A DNA stretch of 64,000 nt. Origin: Mariniblastus fucicola. Its GTDB lineage: Bacteria; Planctomycetota; Planctomycetia; Pirellulales; Pirellulaceae. Of the stretch, positions 24,288 through 30,987 are shown in pieces (the first letter of the stretch is position 1; every line of letters starts with the position of its first letter). A program made the position numbers and the translations under genes. A model generated the notes under the pieces. That model saw only the letters and a list, made by a program, of their open reading frames with translations. It searched no databases and had not been told where the DNA came from. Where the stretch lies: contig NZ_CP042912.1 in the NCBI RefSeq assembly GCF_008087665.1, positions 2,852,001-2,916,000 of the forward strand, read 5' to 3'.

Positions 24288-24812
24288 TCAGGGCTGAGCT
24301 TTCTTCGCCAGCCGTCGTTTCTTTTTCCGTTTCGCCTGAATGGGCAGAAACCAAAGATAGATGCCGGAGATCCAAAGCCCTAGCAGGATCATCCCATTGG
24401 CAGAGAACACGTACAGCTTTACGAAATCAGAAAAGTAGGATCCGTCGTGTAGCGATTCGATAAAGTCGCTTCTTCTATAAGCAGACGACAGAATCTCGCC
24501 GGTTGCAGAATCGAGTTGGACTTCCCAACCGTTCTTGGCACGCACTTTTATGACGCCCTTCGCTGGACGAACGTCCAGTCGATCAACATCGGCCCATGAA
24601 TTGATGCGAGCATCTTCGTCGCCCATCGCTGATTCGAGAACTTTTGGCCAGCCGATCGTCATTTGATTCGGACTGCCAGACAATGTTTTGGGCTGAATCC
24701 ATGCGAACTCCTTCTTGAATTGCAGGATTAAGCCGGTGGCAATAACCAGCAGCAATGGGATCGCGATAAGGATTCCGCCCCACCTGTGAAGCCTTCTTGA
24801 CCAACGATTCAT
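24288..24812 (-). CDS. Small PepSY-associated transmembrane protein
   Basis: 174 residues. One membrane helix follows NRWSRRLHRWGGILIAIPLL (about 10-32) and a second lies near the C-terminus (FSANGMILLGLWISGIYLWF, about 137-158). Between them is a small periplasmic domain with VKAKNGWEVQLDSATG-type PepSY features (VRAKNGWEVQLDSATGEIL). A very basic tail ends the protein. This is the short form of the PepSY_TM family; related proteins sit with iron-siderophore uptake or ferric reductases, but no such gene lies nearby. The start is ATG 24812. Confidence 0.8.
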   Translation of the reverse strand: MNRWSRRLHRWGGILIAIPLLLVIATGLILQFKKEFAWIQPKTLSGSPNQMTIGWPKVLESAMGDEDARINSWADVDRLDVRPAKGVIKVRAKNGWEVQLDSATGEILSSAYRRSDFIESLHDGSYFSDFVKLYVFSANGMILLGLWISGIYLWFLPIQAKRKKKRRLAKKAQP

Positions 24813-25334: not shown

Positions 25335-28304
25335 ATGTCGAAGCGTTTTTTCGGCATGTTGGTAGCTTGTGTTGTCGCAACTTTTGCGTCAACGTCTGCC
25401 AATGCTGACACACCATGTGGTTGCGGCCAAGTTGTTGCACCATGTGGAGATTGCTACGGAAGCTCCGTAGTTGACCCGTATAGCGCGGGTGGAATGGTAT
25501 ACGATGGAATGTCTGGCGGCATTTCATACGGCGGCGGAGTTGTTGTTGATGGTGGAGCTGGCATGGCCGGCGGCATTGTTGACGGCGGAGCTATCGTCGG
25601 CGGTGGAGAAGTTGTTGGTTCAGCTGGCGGCGGATGCTGCGGGCAATCAGTTCGTTACGAAACCCGTACGATCTACCAGAACCAAATGACAACTCAGATG
25701 CGAACAGTTACACGTACTCGTATGCGTACTGAAACTCGCACACAAAATTACACTGTGAACGTTCAGGTTCCAGTTCAACAGACTCAGAACTACACCGTCA
25801 TGGTGCCGGAAACTAAGTCACGAACTGAGTCTTACACAGTTACAGTTCCTTACACTGAAAACGTAACTCAGCAGTACAACGTAACTGTGCCAGTTCAGCA
25901 GACTCGTGAAGAATCTTACTCTGTAAGCGTTCCTTACACTGAGCCTGTTTCTCAGAACTACACAGTCATGGTTCCTTACACTGAGAACGTTACTCAGAAC
26001 TACACGGTTCAGGTTCCTTACACTGAGAACACTACTCAGGAGTACCAGGTTACTGTTCCTTACACTGAGACAACTACTCAGACTTACAACGTGCAAGTTC
26101 CTTACACTGAGAACACAACTCAGGAGTACCAGGTTTCAGTTCCTTACACTGAAATGACGACTCAGGACTACACGGTTACAGTTCCTTATACTGAGAACGT
26201 TACTCAGTCGTACCAGGTTTCAGTTCCTTACACTGAAATGACGACTCAGGAATACGCAGTTCAGGTTCCTTACACAGAGAACACAACTCAGCAGTACCAG
26301 GTCACTGTTCCTTACCAGGAAATGGTTGCCCAGAACTACTCAGTTCAGGTTCCTTACACTGAGAATGTTACTCAGTCGTACCAGGTAAGCGTTCCTTACA
26401 CTGAAAACGTGACTCAGTCATACCAGGTTCGCGTTCCTTACACTGAGCAAGTTGCTCAGCCTTACACAGTTCAAGTTCCTGTTACGACTCAGGTTCCACA
26501 GACTTACACAGTCATGGTTCCAACGACTCAGCAGCGTACTGCAACTCGTATGGTTTGCCAGCCTTACACAGTTACTCGTTACCGCACGCAGTGCGTTGAT
26601 GCTGGTTCATTCCAGAACGTAACTCGTCAGGTTCCTGTCTATAACGGAGCTGCTTCTTACGGAAGCGGAGCTGTTTACGGTGGTGGCGCTGGTATCGGTG
26701 GCGGAATCCTCGGTGGCGGCGGTTGTGGCCTTCTTGGCGGCGGCGGTTGCTCTGCACGTTCTAGCTGTGGTTGCTCTAGCTGTGGTTGCGCAAGCAGCTG
26801 TGGCGGTGGATGCGGTTCAGCTTGTGGCGGTGGATGCGGTTCTTCAGTTGGTGGCGGACTTCTCGGCGGCGGAATCGTCGGCGGTGGTGCTTCTTACGGT
26901 GGCGGCGGTGCTGTTGCTGTAGGTGGCGGTTGTGGTCCTACTTACCAAACTGTTACGACTCGCGTTTACGTTCCACGTCGCGTTCAGCAGCAGGTTCCTT
27001 ACCAGGTAACGTTGAACCGTCAGGTTCCTCAGCAGTACACGTACAACGTGACTGTTAACGTTCCACAGACTCAGACTCGTATGGTTGCTTCAACTTCATA
27101 CCGAACTGAGACTCGTCAGCGTATGGTTGCTGTTCAGCGTTGCCGTATGGAAACCAAGACTCGTACTGTTCCAGTAACACGCACTCGCATGGAAACTCGC
27201 ACACGCGAAGTTCCTGTTCAGCGCTGTCGCACTGAAACTCGTACTCGTCAGGTTCCTGTAACCAAGACTCGTGTTGAAACCAAAACTCGTACTGTTCCAG
27301 TTCAGAAAGTTCGTACTGAAACTCGTACTCGTCAGGTTCCTGTAACCAAAACGAAGGTTGAAACTCGTCAGCGTACCGTTGCAGTTCAGAAGTCACGAAC
27401 TGAAACTCGTACTCGTCAGGTTCCAGTTCAGCGTACTCGTCTTGAGACACGTACTCGTACGGTTGCTGTTACTAAGATGAAGACAGAAACTCGTACACGT
27501 GAAGTACCTGTTCAGCGCACTCGCACTGAAACTCGTACTCGTACAGTTCCTGTTACCAAAATGCGTACCGAAACTCGTCAACGCACTGTTGCTGTTCAGA
27601 AGCAACGTTCAGAGACACGTACTCGTACGTACAACGTAACAAAGACTCGTCTTGAAACTCGTACTCGTACCGTTCCGTTCACAACTTACAAGACTGAAAC
27701 AAAGTCTCGTACGGTTGCTGTTCAGCGGTCACGTCAGGAAACTCGTACTCGCGAAGTTCCTTACACAGTACAGGTTCCAACGACTCAGACTCGTACCGTT
27801 ACAGTAATGACTTCTCAGCCACAGACTCGTACCCGTACTTACACAGTACAGGTTCCAGAGACTTACACTGAGCAAGTTCCTTACCAGGTTTGCACACGCG
27901 TTCCTAAAACCATCTCGGTTCCTGTTGTTGTCAACAGCGGCTGTGGTGCAGCTATGGCTGCTCCAGCAATGATGTCTGCTCCAGCAATGGGCGGAACTGT
28001 CATTGATGGTGGCATGGGCGGATCTGTTATCGATGGTGGCATGATGAGTGCTCCTGTTGATGGCGGAACAATCATCGACGGTGGTGCCGCTGGTACTGTT
28101 ATCGATGGTGCTTCATACGACGCCGGCTTCGGTGGCAACTACGGTGTTGCAGCTGCTCCAGCTGTAATCTCTGGTGGTGCTGCAAGCTACGTTGGTGTTG
28201 CTTCTGGTTCTGGCTGTGGCCTTGGTTCAAACCTTGGTGGTGGCAGTCGTCTGTTCCGCGGATGCCGTCTCGGTAGCCGTCGTTCACGATGTGGTTGCAA
28301 CTAG
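25335..28304 (+). CDS. YTV-repeat cell-surface protein with oppositely charged repeat blocks
   Basis: 989 residues. A signal peptide (SKRFFGMLVACVVATFASTSANA) leads into a Gly-rich segment, then about 20 tandem 14-residue units VPYTENVTQNYTVQ (residues about 150-400; acidic to neutral), a Gly/Ser/Cys-rich hinge (about 450-540, many CGC, CGGG and SCG runs), then about 16 units of TRTVPVTKTRMETR type (about 590-830; very basic), and Gly-rich ends closing with RGCRLGSRRSRCGC. The YTV repeat is known as a planctomycete-restricted family. Location in the proteinaceous cell wall, with disulfide cross-linking through the Cys-rich hinge, is inference. Codon choice is narrow (gtt cct tac act, act cgt act cgt), as in highly expressed genes, which fits the strong promoter and terminator. 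ATG 25335 has GGAGGA upstream; the frame is open back to 25293. Confidence 0.9.
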   Translation: MSKRFFGMLVACVVATFASTSANADTPCGCGQVVAPCGDCYGSSVVDPYSAGGMVYDGMSGGISYGGGVVVDGGAGMAGGIVDGGAIVGGGEVVGSAGGGCCGQSVRYETRTIYQNQMTTQMRTVTRTRMRTETRTQNYTVNVQVPVQQTQNYTVMVPETKSRTESYTVTVPYTENVTQQYNVTVPVQQTREESYSVSVPYTEPVSQNYTVMVPYTENVTQNYTVQVPYTENTTQEYQVTVPYTETTTQTYNVQVPYTENTTQEYQVSVPYTEMTTQDYTVTVPYTENVTQSYQVSVPYTEMTTQEYAVQVPYTENTTQQYQVTVPYQEMVAQNYSVQVPYTENVTQSYQVSVPYTENVTQSYQVRVPYTEQVAQPYTVQVPVTTQVPQTYTVMVPTTQQRTATRMVCQPYTVTRYRTQCVDAGSFQNVTRQVPVYNGAASYGSGAVYGGGAGIGGGILGGGGCGLLGGGGCSARSSCGCSSCGCASSCGGGCGSACGGGCGSSVGGGLLGGGIVGGGASYGGGGAVAVGGGCGPTYQTVTTRVYVPRRVQQQVPYQVTLNRQVPQQYTYNVTVNVPQTQTRMVASTSYRTETRQRMVAVQRCRMETKTRTVPVTRTRMETRTREVPVQRCRTETRTRQVPVTKTRVETKTRTVPVQKVRTETRTRQVPVTKTKVETRQRTVAVQKSRTETRTRQVPVQRTRLETRTRTVAVTKMKTETRTREVPVQRTRTETRTRTVPVTKMRTETRQRTVAVQKQRSETRTRTYNVTKTRLETRTRTVPFTTYKTETKSRTVAVQRSRQETRTREVPYTVQVPTTQTRTVTVMTSQPQTRTRTYTVQVPETYTEQVPYQVCTRVPKTISVPVVVNSGCGAAMAAPAMMSAPAMGGTVIDGGMGGSVIDGGMMSAPVDGGTIIDGGAAGTVIDGASYDAGFGGNYGVAAAPAVISGGAASYVGVASGSGCGLGSNLGGGSRLFRGCRLGSRRSRCGCN
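25790..26540 (+). repeat. Coding tandem repeats, VPYTENxTQxYxV units of 42 bp
   Basis: Around 18-20 in-frame 42-bp units, all beginning gttccttacactga or close variants. Neighbouring units are similar but not identical, so they arose by tandem duplication and have since diverged. Confidence 0.85.
27100..27770 (+). repeat. Coding tandem repeats, basic TRTxxVxxxRxETR units of 42 bp
   Basis: About 16 units of 14 residues built on gaaactcgtactcgt, alternating VPVT-type and VPVQ/VAVQ-type cores. The unit length equals that of the first repeat block although the residues differ. Confidence 0.8.
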
Positions 28305-28350: not shown

Positions 28351-28378
28351 GGGCGTGTCCACTCGGACACGCCCTTTT
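28351..28378. terminator. Rho-independent terminator after the YTV protein gene
   Basis: A perfect 10-bp stem GGGCGTGTCC / GGACACGCCC with loop ACTC is followed by TTTTCTTTT on the plus strand and preceded by AAAAATAAA, so it can also stop the convergent minus-strand gene at 28413. Confidence 0.9.
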
Positions 28379-28412
28379 CTTTTGTCTCAATTGTTTCTGA
28401 GTGGAAACCGAA

Positions 28413-29804
28413 CTATCGGCGAATGATCATCGTTCCATTGTCGGCGACTGGAAGAAGTGGTCGATCGTAGGAGCGGTAGTACGCGACGCCCTGCGGACGG
28501 AATGCAAATCCAACATAGATGTTGAATGTGTCTTCGATCCGGCTTGAGCCGAGATTGCTGTTAGGTGCTTCTGTGTCGTTGAGGTAGTACGCGGCTCCGG
28601 CTTCCAGTGCCATGAACTGCGATACGGGGATATCAAAATCCGCTCCGACTGCGAAGTGATCGTTGCCGGTCCAGCCAGCGAAAATCTCTTCCCATCCACC
28701 AGTGCTGAGAACTTTACGCAAGAAGAATCGGTAGTGCTCGTCCGTCGTCGTGGTCAACCCGCTGAAACGCGTGCCATCGAAGATTCCCAAGCTTGTATCA
28801 TCCTGTTGGCTACTCGTGAAACGGAATCCGATTGCGCCTCCGTTCGGATATGCCCAGCTGAGCTCACCGCGGAGTTGTGCAATGTCTGACTCAGTGAAGT
28901 ATTCTTCAGCCAGCACGTCGACGACCAAACCTGCCTGCAAGCCGTAATCGACGCGGCGATAAAGTCCCGCCGTGATGAACAGCTGATCGCGGCTCGCTTC
29001 GGTAACATCGCTTCCGCCAAAGTTGGTCTGCACGCTTCGCATACCAAACTGACCAGAAACACGGCCGCAGAAAAGACGGCAAAGCGGAATGCCAAGATTG
29101 AAACCGGCGTAGGCTCCGAAATTGGAATCCTGAACCAGATCCGTTCCGACAGGGCTGGTGTAGGCTGGGTGCTGGAAAGCAGTGGCACCGAAAAAGTAGC
29201 TGCCAGATCTCAAGGCACGTCCGAGCGGTCCCTGCCAACATGGTGTGTCGTCGGGGCATCCGCCTCGCCCGCAGCAATCGTCAGTAAAGTAGCTTCCTGA
29301 ATCGCCGCAAGAATCGCAACCGACCACAACGTCGTCGCTATAGACAACGCCTGAATCGATAGAACCCTGAATGGAATCTGTGTAGATTGGCTGACCCGCC
29401 ATCGGTGCTCCAATGACTTCCCCGGACATGACTGGCTGGGAAAGAACCGTTTCACCCATGATCGGTGAACCGCCATCAATGACGGTGCCTTCGGTCAAAA
29501 GTTGCGCAGTGCGTGTGCCGGAGGGGGCGTAAGTCTGACTGGCGGATCTGGCTGAGCTCGACGCAGCTTGGCCGGGAACGACCTGACGCGGAACGCGCGT
29601 CGCGCTTGCCTGAGCCACTCGAACGGGTTCTGCTTGTGAAACAGCCTGCTGTGTCTGAGCACGGGCTTGGGCCTGTTGAATTGCTGCCATTCGGGCCTGA
29701 TATTGAACTGACGCTGCGTTCTGTGCATTCGCACTTGTCGTCAGGAATGCCGCGATCGAAAGCGGCAAAACGAATAGCATGCTGGTTGTTTTGGGGGAAA
29801 ACAT
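28413..29804 (-). CDS. Planctomycete outer-membrane beta-barrel candidate
   Basis: 463 residues from ATG 29804. A signal peptide (TTSMLFVLPLSIAAFLTTSANA) leads into a Gln/Ala-rich low-complexity region (VQYQARMAAIQQAQARAQ), then a small Cys cluster (CDSCGDSGSYFTDDCCGRGGC). From about residue 190 there are alternating polar/hydrophobic strands with aromatic ends: FGAYAGFNLGIPL, LFITAGLYRRVDYGLQAGLVVD, FAVGADFDIPVSQFMALEAGAAYYL, IYVGFAFRP. This fits an outer-membrane barrel of the uncharacterised planctomycete type (DUF6666-like); I am not certain of the exact family. A CAGGAT ribosome site precedes the ATG. It converges with the YTV gene across a shared terminator. Confidence 0.65.
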   Translation of the reverse strand: MFSPKTTSMLFVLPLSIAAFLTTSANAQNAASVQYQARMAAIQQAQARAQTQQAVSQAEPVRVAQASATRVPRQVVPGQAASSSARSASQTYAPSGTRTAQLLTEGTVIDGGSPIMGETVLSQPVMSGEVIGAPMAGQPIYTDSIQGSIDSGVVYSDDVVVGCDSCGDSGSYFTDDCCGRGGCPDDTPCWQGPLGRALRSGSYFFGATAFQHPAYTSPVGTDLVQDSNFGAYAGFNLGIPLCRLFCGRVSGQFGMRSVQTNFGGSDVTEASRDQLFITAGLYRRVDYGLQAGLVVDVLAEEYFTESDIAQLRGELSWAYPNGGAIGFRFTSSQQDDTSLGIFDGTRFSGLTTTTDEHYRFFLRKVLSTGGWEEIFAGWTGNDHFAVGADFDIPVSQFMALEAGAAYYLNDTEAPNSNLGSSRIEDTFNIYVGFAFRPQGVAYYRSYDRPLLPVADNGTMIIRR

Positions 29805-30165
29805 CGGATCATCCTGTCCTGAATTTGGTTCACGCAAACGAAAGCGCATTCGTCACGTCAGAAAAGTTATCGGACCGACAAGAACCACTCTTTCGTCAAA
29901 ATCGGCATAATCAGAAAAACTCCCAAGCTTTGCCCACGTTGCCATCAACTGATAGCAAACTTGGTGGAGTTGGCAGATTCAGCCGCCGGCAGCAGGAACA
30001 TTCAAGTTGAATGCGTGGGATGGGCAAAATGGTTCAATTAACGAAACGTGCTGGACTGCGTCGTGGGGTTCGTTGGCAAGGATTGAATCACAGAGCGGTT
30101 AGGCCTGTGTCGAAGTTACCGAATGTATGAAAACTTCTTTCTGGTTTGGTCAACTGAACTTTACC
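29805..30165. other. Divergent intergenic region between two beta-barrel genes
   Basis: 361 bp between the starts of two outer-membrane candidates. The only open frames are short and unsupported. No clear promoter pair or regulatory element is visible. Confidence 0.4.
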
Positions 30166-30987
30166 ATGTACTCGAAACTGATCTGCTTTCTGTTTGTCGC
30201 CGTGACTTTGCAAAGCTGTGTTTCTCAAGTGGAAGCACAGGTTACCTATGCGTTGGGTGACACTCCGATCACGTCTGGTGCGCGAAACGTCGGACCGGTT
30301 CGGCGAGCAGCTCAACGCGTCAGATCTGGATCCGCACGCGTCGTGCCCACCTTCGACAAAAACGGAAGGTTTAACCGCGAGGCGGCCTACAGCTTCAACG
30401 AGAGCCGACCTCTGGCCGGGCTTTTTGCGCCAGATTTTGAATTGACCGCTAGTGTATTTGGTGGCTGGAATCGGATCGTCGGACTTGGTCCTGACTCCGC
30501 TGACGACGGCAATTTCGACGACGATCTCGCCGTGGGGTTCGCTTACGGTCGTCGGCACAACAAGCGACTGCGAAGCGAGTTCGAGTTCACCTACCGATCC
30601 AACGAAGCGAGTGCTGATGTGATTGGGGCGTCAATGCCACAACCACTGCTTGGTGAAGTCCAGGTGTATTCAATTATGAAAAACTTCGTGATCGATATCG
30701 AAGTTCCATCTCAATTCGCGACACCGTATGTTGGCATCGGAATCGGCTACGCACATTTCGATGCGGATTTCAATCGGAGCAGCGGCGTTGTGCTTGAGAA
30801 CTCGTCGAGCTTCGCTTGGCAGCCGATTGGCGGCGTCTCGTTGCAACTTACCGAACGAGCTTTTTACTACATCGAATATCGATACTTCTCGACGACGGAA
30901 TTGGAAGTCACGCAGTTCGGATCAGACGTAGAAGGCGTGACTTACAGTGCGCACAATCTGTTCATGGGTTTGCGATTCGAGTTTTAG
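30166..30987 (+). CDS. Outer-membrane beta-barrel protein (OmpA/opacity-like)
   Basis: 273 residues from ATG 30166. A signal peptide (YSKLICFLFVAVTLQSCVSQVEA) is followed by about 80 residues of linker and then eight or so amphipathic strands (FELTASVFGGWNRIVG, DDLAVGFAYGRR, SEFEFTYRSN, PYVGIGIGYAHFDADF, FYYIEYRYFSTTE, SAHNLFMGLRFEF). The C-terminal Phe is the outer-membrane insertion signature. It resembles small opacity-type barrels; no function beyond envelope structure can be claimed. An in-frame ATG at 30127 is possible but would put a polar stretch before the signal peptide. It converges with the DNA-ligase-like gene. Confidence 0.7.
   Translation: MYSKLICFLFVAVTLQSCVSQVEAQVTYALGDTPITSGARNVGPVRRAAQRVRSGSARVVPTFDKNGRFNREAAYSFNESRPLAGLFAPDFELTASVFGGWNRIVGLGPDSADDGNFDDDLAVGFAYGRRHNKRLRSEFEFTYRSNEASADVIGASMPQPLLGEVQVYSIMKNFVIDIEVPSQFATPYVGIGIGYAHFDADFNRSSGVVLENSSSFAWQPIGGVSLQLTERAFYYIEYRYFSTTELEVTQFGSDVEGVTYSAHNLFMGLRFEF

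Follow-up and report, generated by a model that had tools for sequence, protein, structure and literature searches.

How the protein-rich wall of planctomycetes is assembled is an old question; of the wall components known so far, YTV proteins count among the main ones. In the sections of the published reports that we draw on here, walls of Gemmata obscuriglobus isolated by boiling in 10% SDS are said to have YTV proteins as major constituents (PMC5287468), and two YTV proteins scored highest in a wall preparation of Tuwongella immobilis (PMC8567305). In T. immobilis these YTV proteins were confined to the Tris/SDS-soluble fraction (PMC8567305) and so are not simply SDS-insoluble. Most Planctomycetales are described as being without peptidoglycan genes (PMC8567305); in Planctopirus limnophila, most peptidoglycan genes are reported to be dispensable and the essential set includes a YTV protein (PMC10632474). 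The portion of the literature searched, in which the chief study of how YTV proteins evolved (Mahajan et al. 2020, evaa159) does not figure, describes neither a two-arm architecture nor near-equal arms or mirrored insertions and deletions in these proteins.

The window, by which we mean the whole 64-kb stretch of DNA analyzed here, holds a single repeat protein with a signal-like start, encoded by an exact open reading frame at 25335..28304 on the forward strand (989 residues). It matches the Pfam YTV family (PF07639) over eleven stretches with an E value of 5.8e-31, reaching 106.7 bits where the curated cut-off is 21 bits. The product falls within the known YTV family as one of its ordinary representatives: it has in common with the YTV wall proteins the repeats above the curated cut-off, a signal-like N-terminus, a richness in cysteine and a planctomycete origin, and we find no difference in kind. 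An earlier note on this DNA had proposed a building block of the wall, an idea that is supported for the family by published proteomics and PF07639, and that may apply to this protein. The 989-residue protein matches nothing in NCBIfam and no solved structure among the PDB sequences. PF07639 occurs in 14 of 199 genomes drawn across the phylum, 12 of these 14 belonging to the window's class, and in none of 14 control genomes; YTV proteins are essentially confined to the class Planctomycetia. The two loci with PF07639 outside the class (L242 and L243) have hinges that are rich in glycine and free of cysteine.

In the protein, two arms flank a Gly/Cys hinge. A signal-peptide-like N-terminus, recognized by eye from the translation (residues 1–24, 25335..25406), leads into a Gly/Cys region (25407..25643) with 27 Gly and 6 Cys in the 80 residues 25–104. 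Arm 1, made of YTV units, spans residues 104–419 (316 residues, 25644..26591) and carries a net charge of -9; a Gly/Cys hinge defined by composition and segmentation follows at 26592..26936; arm 2, made of basic TRT units, spans residues 535–866 (332 residues, 26937..27932) and carries a net charge of +51. The arm borders are those of the segmentation used on the relatives, and all of these features lie on the forward strand. Beyond the hinge, Gly/Cys regions are found both after the signal-like start and at the C-terminus, where the translation of 27933..28301 ends in a tail with VIDGG motifs (31 Gly and 4 Cys in residues 881–989). The whole protein contains 28 Cys and terminates in Cys-Gly-Cys-Asn. 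A terminal Cys-Asn, often as CGCN or CCN, is seen in 17 of the 24 YTV proteins listed, its counterpart in the window lying at 28290..28301.

Both arms consist of 14-residue units, in which a VP start is common. Compared with 300 composition shuffles, identity at lag 14 is 0.57 in block 1 (residues 134–431; z 22.5) and 0.47 in block 2 (residues 561–880; z 18.9), and block 2 reaches 0.55 at lag 28 (z 22.8). Block 1 has a net charge of -13 and a pI of 4.3, block 2 a net charge of +48 and a pI of 11.7, and the hinge between them (residues 432–560) counts 46 Gly and 11 Cys among 129 residues. The description from which this work started, of two repeat blocks with a 14-residue period and opposite charge on either side of a Cys/Gly-rich linker, was right in period, charges and hinge composition. 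In the genome search, the PF07639 matches above the cut-off all fall in arm 1, except for a single match where arm 2 ends. An antisense open reading frame of 131 residues inside arm 2, at 27055..27450 on the reverse strand, tracks the repeats and is most likely no gene.

AlphaFold2, run on a four-row alignment, reached a pLDDT of 26 with the full-length protein and of 36 with arm 1 by itself, values too poor to show the fold. The low-confidence arm-1 model (pLDDT 36) places a 7-residue and a 2-residue strand in each 14-residue unit along a large part of the arm, a pattern that would resemble that of beta-solenoid repeat proteins. A Foldseek search with the arm-1 model returned no significant fold match (best E 0.72). 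Since the models are too poor to show a fold, we infer the pairing of the arms proposed below from evolution. Another likeness is one of architecture. Rad50 and SMC proteins have two equal coiled-coil arms that fold back about a hinge; they are helical and cytoplasmic. By analogy, the YTV protein would also possess two equal arms folding back about a hinge, in its case Thr/Val/Arg-rich repeats that are presumably beta, rather than helical, and that lie behind a signal-like start.

The comparison of arms across relatives rests on two collections of loci. The window protein matched 54 of 60 relatives, and a profile of nine relatives matched 135 of the 146 genomes of the order; the loci were hand-picked among the best-scoring matches listed, and only part of the matching genomes was taken. 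Arm borders were drawn by a compositional two-state segmentation. Exactly two arms were obtained in 129 of the 135 candidate open reading frames from the genus, family and order. Removing eight open-ended frames, one duplicate and five without exactly two arms (among them L048, the third YTV-like paralogue in this genome, and L064) left 121 closed, non-redundant proteins, referred to below as the order set. The second set was gathered once the segmentation had been fixed and comprised 57 loci, of which one without a candidate and one open-ended were dropped; as drawn, 52 of its 55 open reading frames have two arms and three do not.

In most of the proteins, the arms have almost the same length. 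In the order set, arm 1 spans 131 to 390 residues, about threefold, and its length correlates with that of arm 2 with r 0.94 and a median difference of +9 residues (n=121). In 97 of the 121 proteins the difference lies within one unit of this median, and the median deviation is 5 residues, as against a mean of 54 and a minimum of 34 in 10,000 shuffles. The hinge varies from 10 to 140 residues with no correlation to arm length (rho -0.02, n=121). Twelve segmentation settings gave r between 0.89 and 0.97, each on the 108 to 176 of 181 open reading frames that it splits in two. The second set as drawn repeats the result, with r 0.94 and 39 of 52 proteins within 14 residues of +9. Four of its loci (L244, L245, L246 and L248) belong to the window's own order or family and all fall outside this band; without them, two arms are present in 48 of 51 open reading frames, r is 0.96 and 39 of 48 lie within 14 residues of +9, a figure for proteins outside the order that is better-looking than that for the set as drawn. 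Two of these 48 two-armed frames (L242 and L243) come from outside the class. A short relative, the 371-residue frame of L226, has arms of 105 and 120 residues. How a locus was found also affects the numbers. The part of the second set found with profile A2, which was built from nine two-armed proteins and may favor two-armed proteins, gives r 0.97, a rank correlation of 0.95 and 29 of 32 within 14 residues of +9; the part found with Pfam (21 loci, L228–L248, with two arms in 20 of 21 open reading frames) gives r 0.92, a rank correlation of 0.49 and 10 of the 20 within 14.

Arms of similar length could simply have been inherited from an old duplication of one arm, followed by repeat slippage, with no contact between the arms. 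Both arms are indeed made of 14-residue units, many with a VP start, and exceptions to arm equality exist. The two arms nevertheless differ strongly in sequence, yet their lengths change jointly on the tree: independent contrasts (n=120) yield r 0.79 for the arm lengths, compared with 0.01 for the hinge control and a top value of 0.34 in 10,000 shuffles. The tree behind these contrasts and behind the independent pairs below was made with FastTree on arm ends, has many weak branches and drew long-branch warnings, and the results depend on it. Together with the mirrored places of change described below, the joint change of length makes inheritance by duplication the least probable of the accounts considered here.

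Paralogues within one genome are informative about where the match in length arises. Among same-genome paralogues whose first arms differ by at least 28 residues, a protein's own arm 2 fits its arm 1 better than the paralogue's arm 2 does in 64 of 66 ordered comparisons, with a median misfit of 5 residues for its own arm and 74.5 for the paralogue's. The matching of lengths thus takes place inside a single polypeptide, or else between its copies. The same observation bears on a different explanation, in which the arms are unpaired and both traverse one common layer, say from the inner to the outer surface and back, so that the thickness of the layer sets both lengths. Near-equal arms fit this explanation equally well, and the window protein has cysteines in its hinge as well as in its N- and C-terminal regions, with the three Cys clusters of the third paralogue at matching places. 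A single layer would not lead one to expect same-genome paralogues that often differ greatly in arm length, and it predicts neither the mirrored unit changes nor the antiparallel charge compensation reported below; we regard a layer-spanning arrangement as unlikely. Equality of the arms also has its exceptions. For 24 of the 121 proteins of the order set, the difference departs from the median by more than one unit; several of these belong to a subfamily with a PGCWxxDPC-type hinge (for example 334/270 and 268/361), in which the rule is broken more often. Such unequal intermediates fit a stepwise compensation, yet they equally reveal that strict pairing does not hold in every case.

The places at which units are gained or lost also bear on the arrangement of the arms. 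In close pairs of differing length, the missing block was located in each arm by ungapped identity; the figures rest on the order set, the indel places being too broad in the second set. Among 20 independent close pairs chosen regardless of whether both arms had changed, 12 changed both arms in the same direction, five changed one arm only, one changed them in opposite directions and two involved no whole unit; one-sided indels do occur among the relatives. The 12 same-direction pairs include ten of equal size, and the distances of the two events from the hinge correlate with rho 0.84. A further test used 18 tree-independent pairs, restricted to those whose arms had both gained or both lost 9 residues or more and taken along non-overlapping tree paths. 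Here the correlation of hinge distances is 0.93 (rho), 13 of the 18 events are of equal size, and none of 20,000 shuffles did as well; the mean placement error is 0.063 of arm length under an antiparallel arrangement versus 0.387 under a parallel one. Two alternative filters gave rho 0.92 in 15 pairs (ten equal) and rho 0.97 in 12 pairs (eight equal). Three events at arm ends, where the borders could mislead, were also dropped, and the remaining inner events retain the pattern (n=15, rho 0.86, p 1e-4, 12 of 15 equal). Mirrored change at equal distance from the hinge is what antiparallel, in-register pairing predicts, be it in a hairpin or in a swapped dimer. No single DNA event known to us would alter both arms at mirrored places, which counts against inheritance by duplication.

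Charges within the repeat unit are suggestive of the same arrangement. In the 99 of 121 proteins that could be used, repeat-phase charges compensate between the arms in antiparallel registers, with a p of 0/3000 (signed-rank p 0.003); the same test in parallel registers is not clear (p 0.07, signed-rank p 0.18). Compensation is strongest between position 5 and position 5 (r -0.59, signed-rank -0.50). The test relies on automatic phase calls and favors two neighboring registers, not one, and the total charges of the arms show no covariation (r 0.05).

The relationship of overall charge bears on the model of the earlier note, in which the oppositely charged arms of different molecules attract each other head to tail and the resulting chains are locked by disulfides. 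Within the genus, the charges agree with this model. The 15 closed open reading frames (that of the window plus 14 more, drawn from 15 of the 28 genomes of the genus) all combine an arm 1 with a net charge of 0 or below, exactly 0 in two of them, with an arm 2 of +21 or above, and the window protein offers 28 Cys for locking. Two of the 27 other genus genomes gave no match to the window protein, and the rest that do not contribute were open-ended or retrieved in part. An orthologue lacking the second block, a finding that the note had named as one that would count against it, is absent from these 15, which all carry both arms. Farther away, opposite charge becomes a minority trait among relatives that retain the architecture: an arm 1 below zero with an arm 2 above it is kept in 46 of 121 proteins of the order set and 8 of 48 outside the order, where it is reversed in 9 of 48. 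The charge profile proposed as a comparison among orthologues consequently holds, as opposite or zero/positive, in the genus and fails in most relatives, and opposite charge is mainly a trait of this branch of the YTV family. Four genomes of one genus in the window's family (L091, L092, L093 and L094) have swapped polarity, with arm 1 at +13 to +18 and arm 2 at -1 to -4. Head-to-tail chains, moreover, need neither equal arms nor mirrored indels, which are what the relatives retain, and we consider association by charge in this manner very unlikely. What the family keeps is near-equal arm length and, where both arms change, mirrored change; on sequence evidence, this suggests antiparallel pairing over head-to-tail chains.

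We therefore favor, as the probable reading, a secreted wall protein that folds back at the hinge, so that its two arms run alongside each other in antiparallel register. The YTV-family structural protein would be exported from the cell, and a fold-back at the Gly/Cys hinge would bring the YTV arm beside the TRT arm, unit against unit, the contact being made either within one molecule or between two copies. One end of the resulting rod would be formed by the Cys-rich hinge and the opposite end by the N- and C-termini, which are also rich in Cys; disulfides between rod ends could join rods into a wall. In this genus, the acidic, Tyr-rich arm facing an Arg-rich arm may help pairing. Beyond the gene, its repeats and the behavior of its arms among relatives, the pairing, the rod and the disulfide network, as well as export and location in this organism, are elements that we infer. 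A bolder version of this model, whose chances we place just short of even, is that YTV proteins act as self-zippering rods: every unit of arm 1 would pair, in antiparallel orientation, with the unit of arm 2 equidistant from the hinge, units would be gained and lost in mirror pairs class-wide, arm length would act as a ruler for the rod, and the cell would build its wall from several rod lengths. Mirror-matched arms turn the question of wall assembly into a concrete, testable building-block model, and antiparallel unit-to-unit constraints could aid structure prediction.

The distribution of cysteine qualifies any role of disulfides between the arms. In 114 of the 121 proteins, arm 2 is richer in Cys than arm 1, and so inter-arm disulfides cannot be one to one. 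Three loci (L055, L056 and L057) have 26–29 Cys in arm 2 and 5–6 in arm 1.

The genome of the window (6.57 Mb in one contig) encodes two further proteins of this kind. A second YTV gene near 2.184 Mb is likewise two-armed, and a third, diverged YTV-like gene lies near 3.130 Mb (locus L048, 3139..5946 on the reverse strand of that locus). The product of the third gene has about 170 residues ahead of its first Cys cluster and 15 Cys in all, in three clusters, and the Cys positions delimit stretches of about 351 and about 337 residues between clusters. Three loci of close relatives found by the contig profile scan are Pirellulaceae metagenome bins.

Around the YTV gene itself, a terminator-like element read from the sequence (28351..28383, an inverted repeat of 10 bp without mismatches and, after it, a run rich in T) sits between two convergent genes. 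The convergent neighbor, at 28413..29849 on the reverse strand, belongs to DUF6666 (PF20371, E 1e-68), and 30127..30987 on the forward strand encodes a predicted outer-membrane beta-barrel protein (PF13505, E 6.8e-10). Neighbors were compared at 24 loci, two of them the genome's own paralogue loci, with flanks of mostly a few kb that make absence weak evidence; on this basis, L045, the closest relative, is the only one in which the DUF6666 and outer-membrane protein genes adjoin the YTV gene. Among the same 24 loci, L045, L049, L059 and L060 share the open reading frame that lies upstream at 24288..24812. The N-terminal part of the DUF6666 neighbor contains a GTVIDGG motif that resembles the VIDGG motifs in the tail of the YTV protein.
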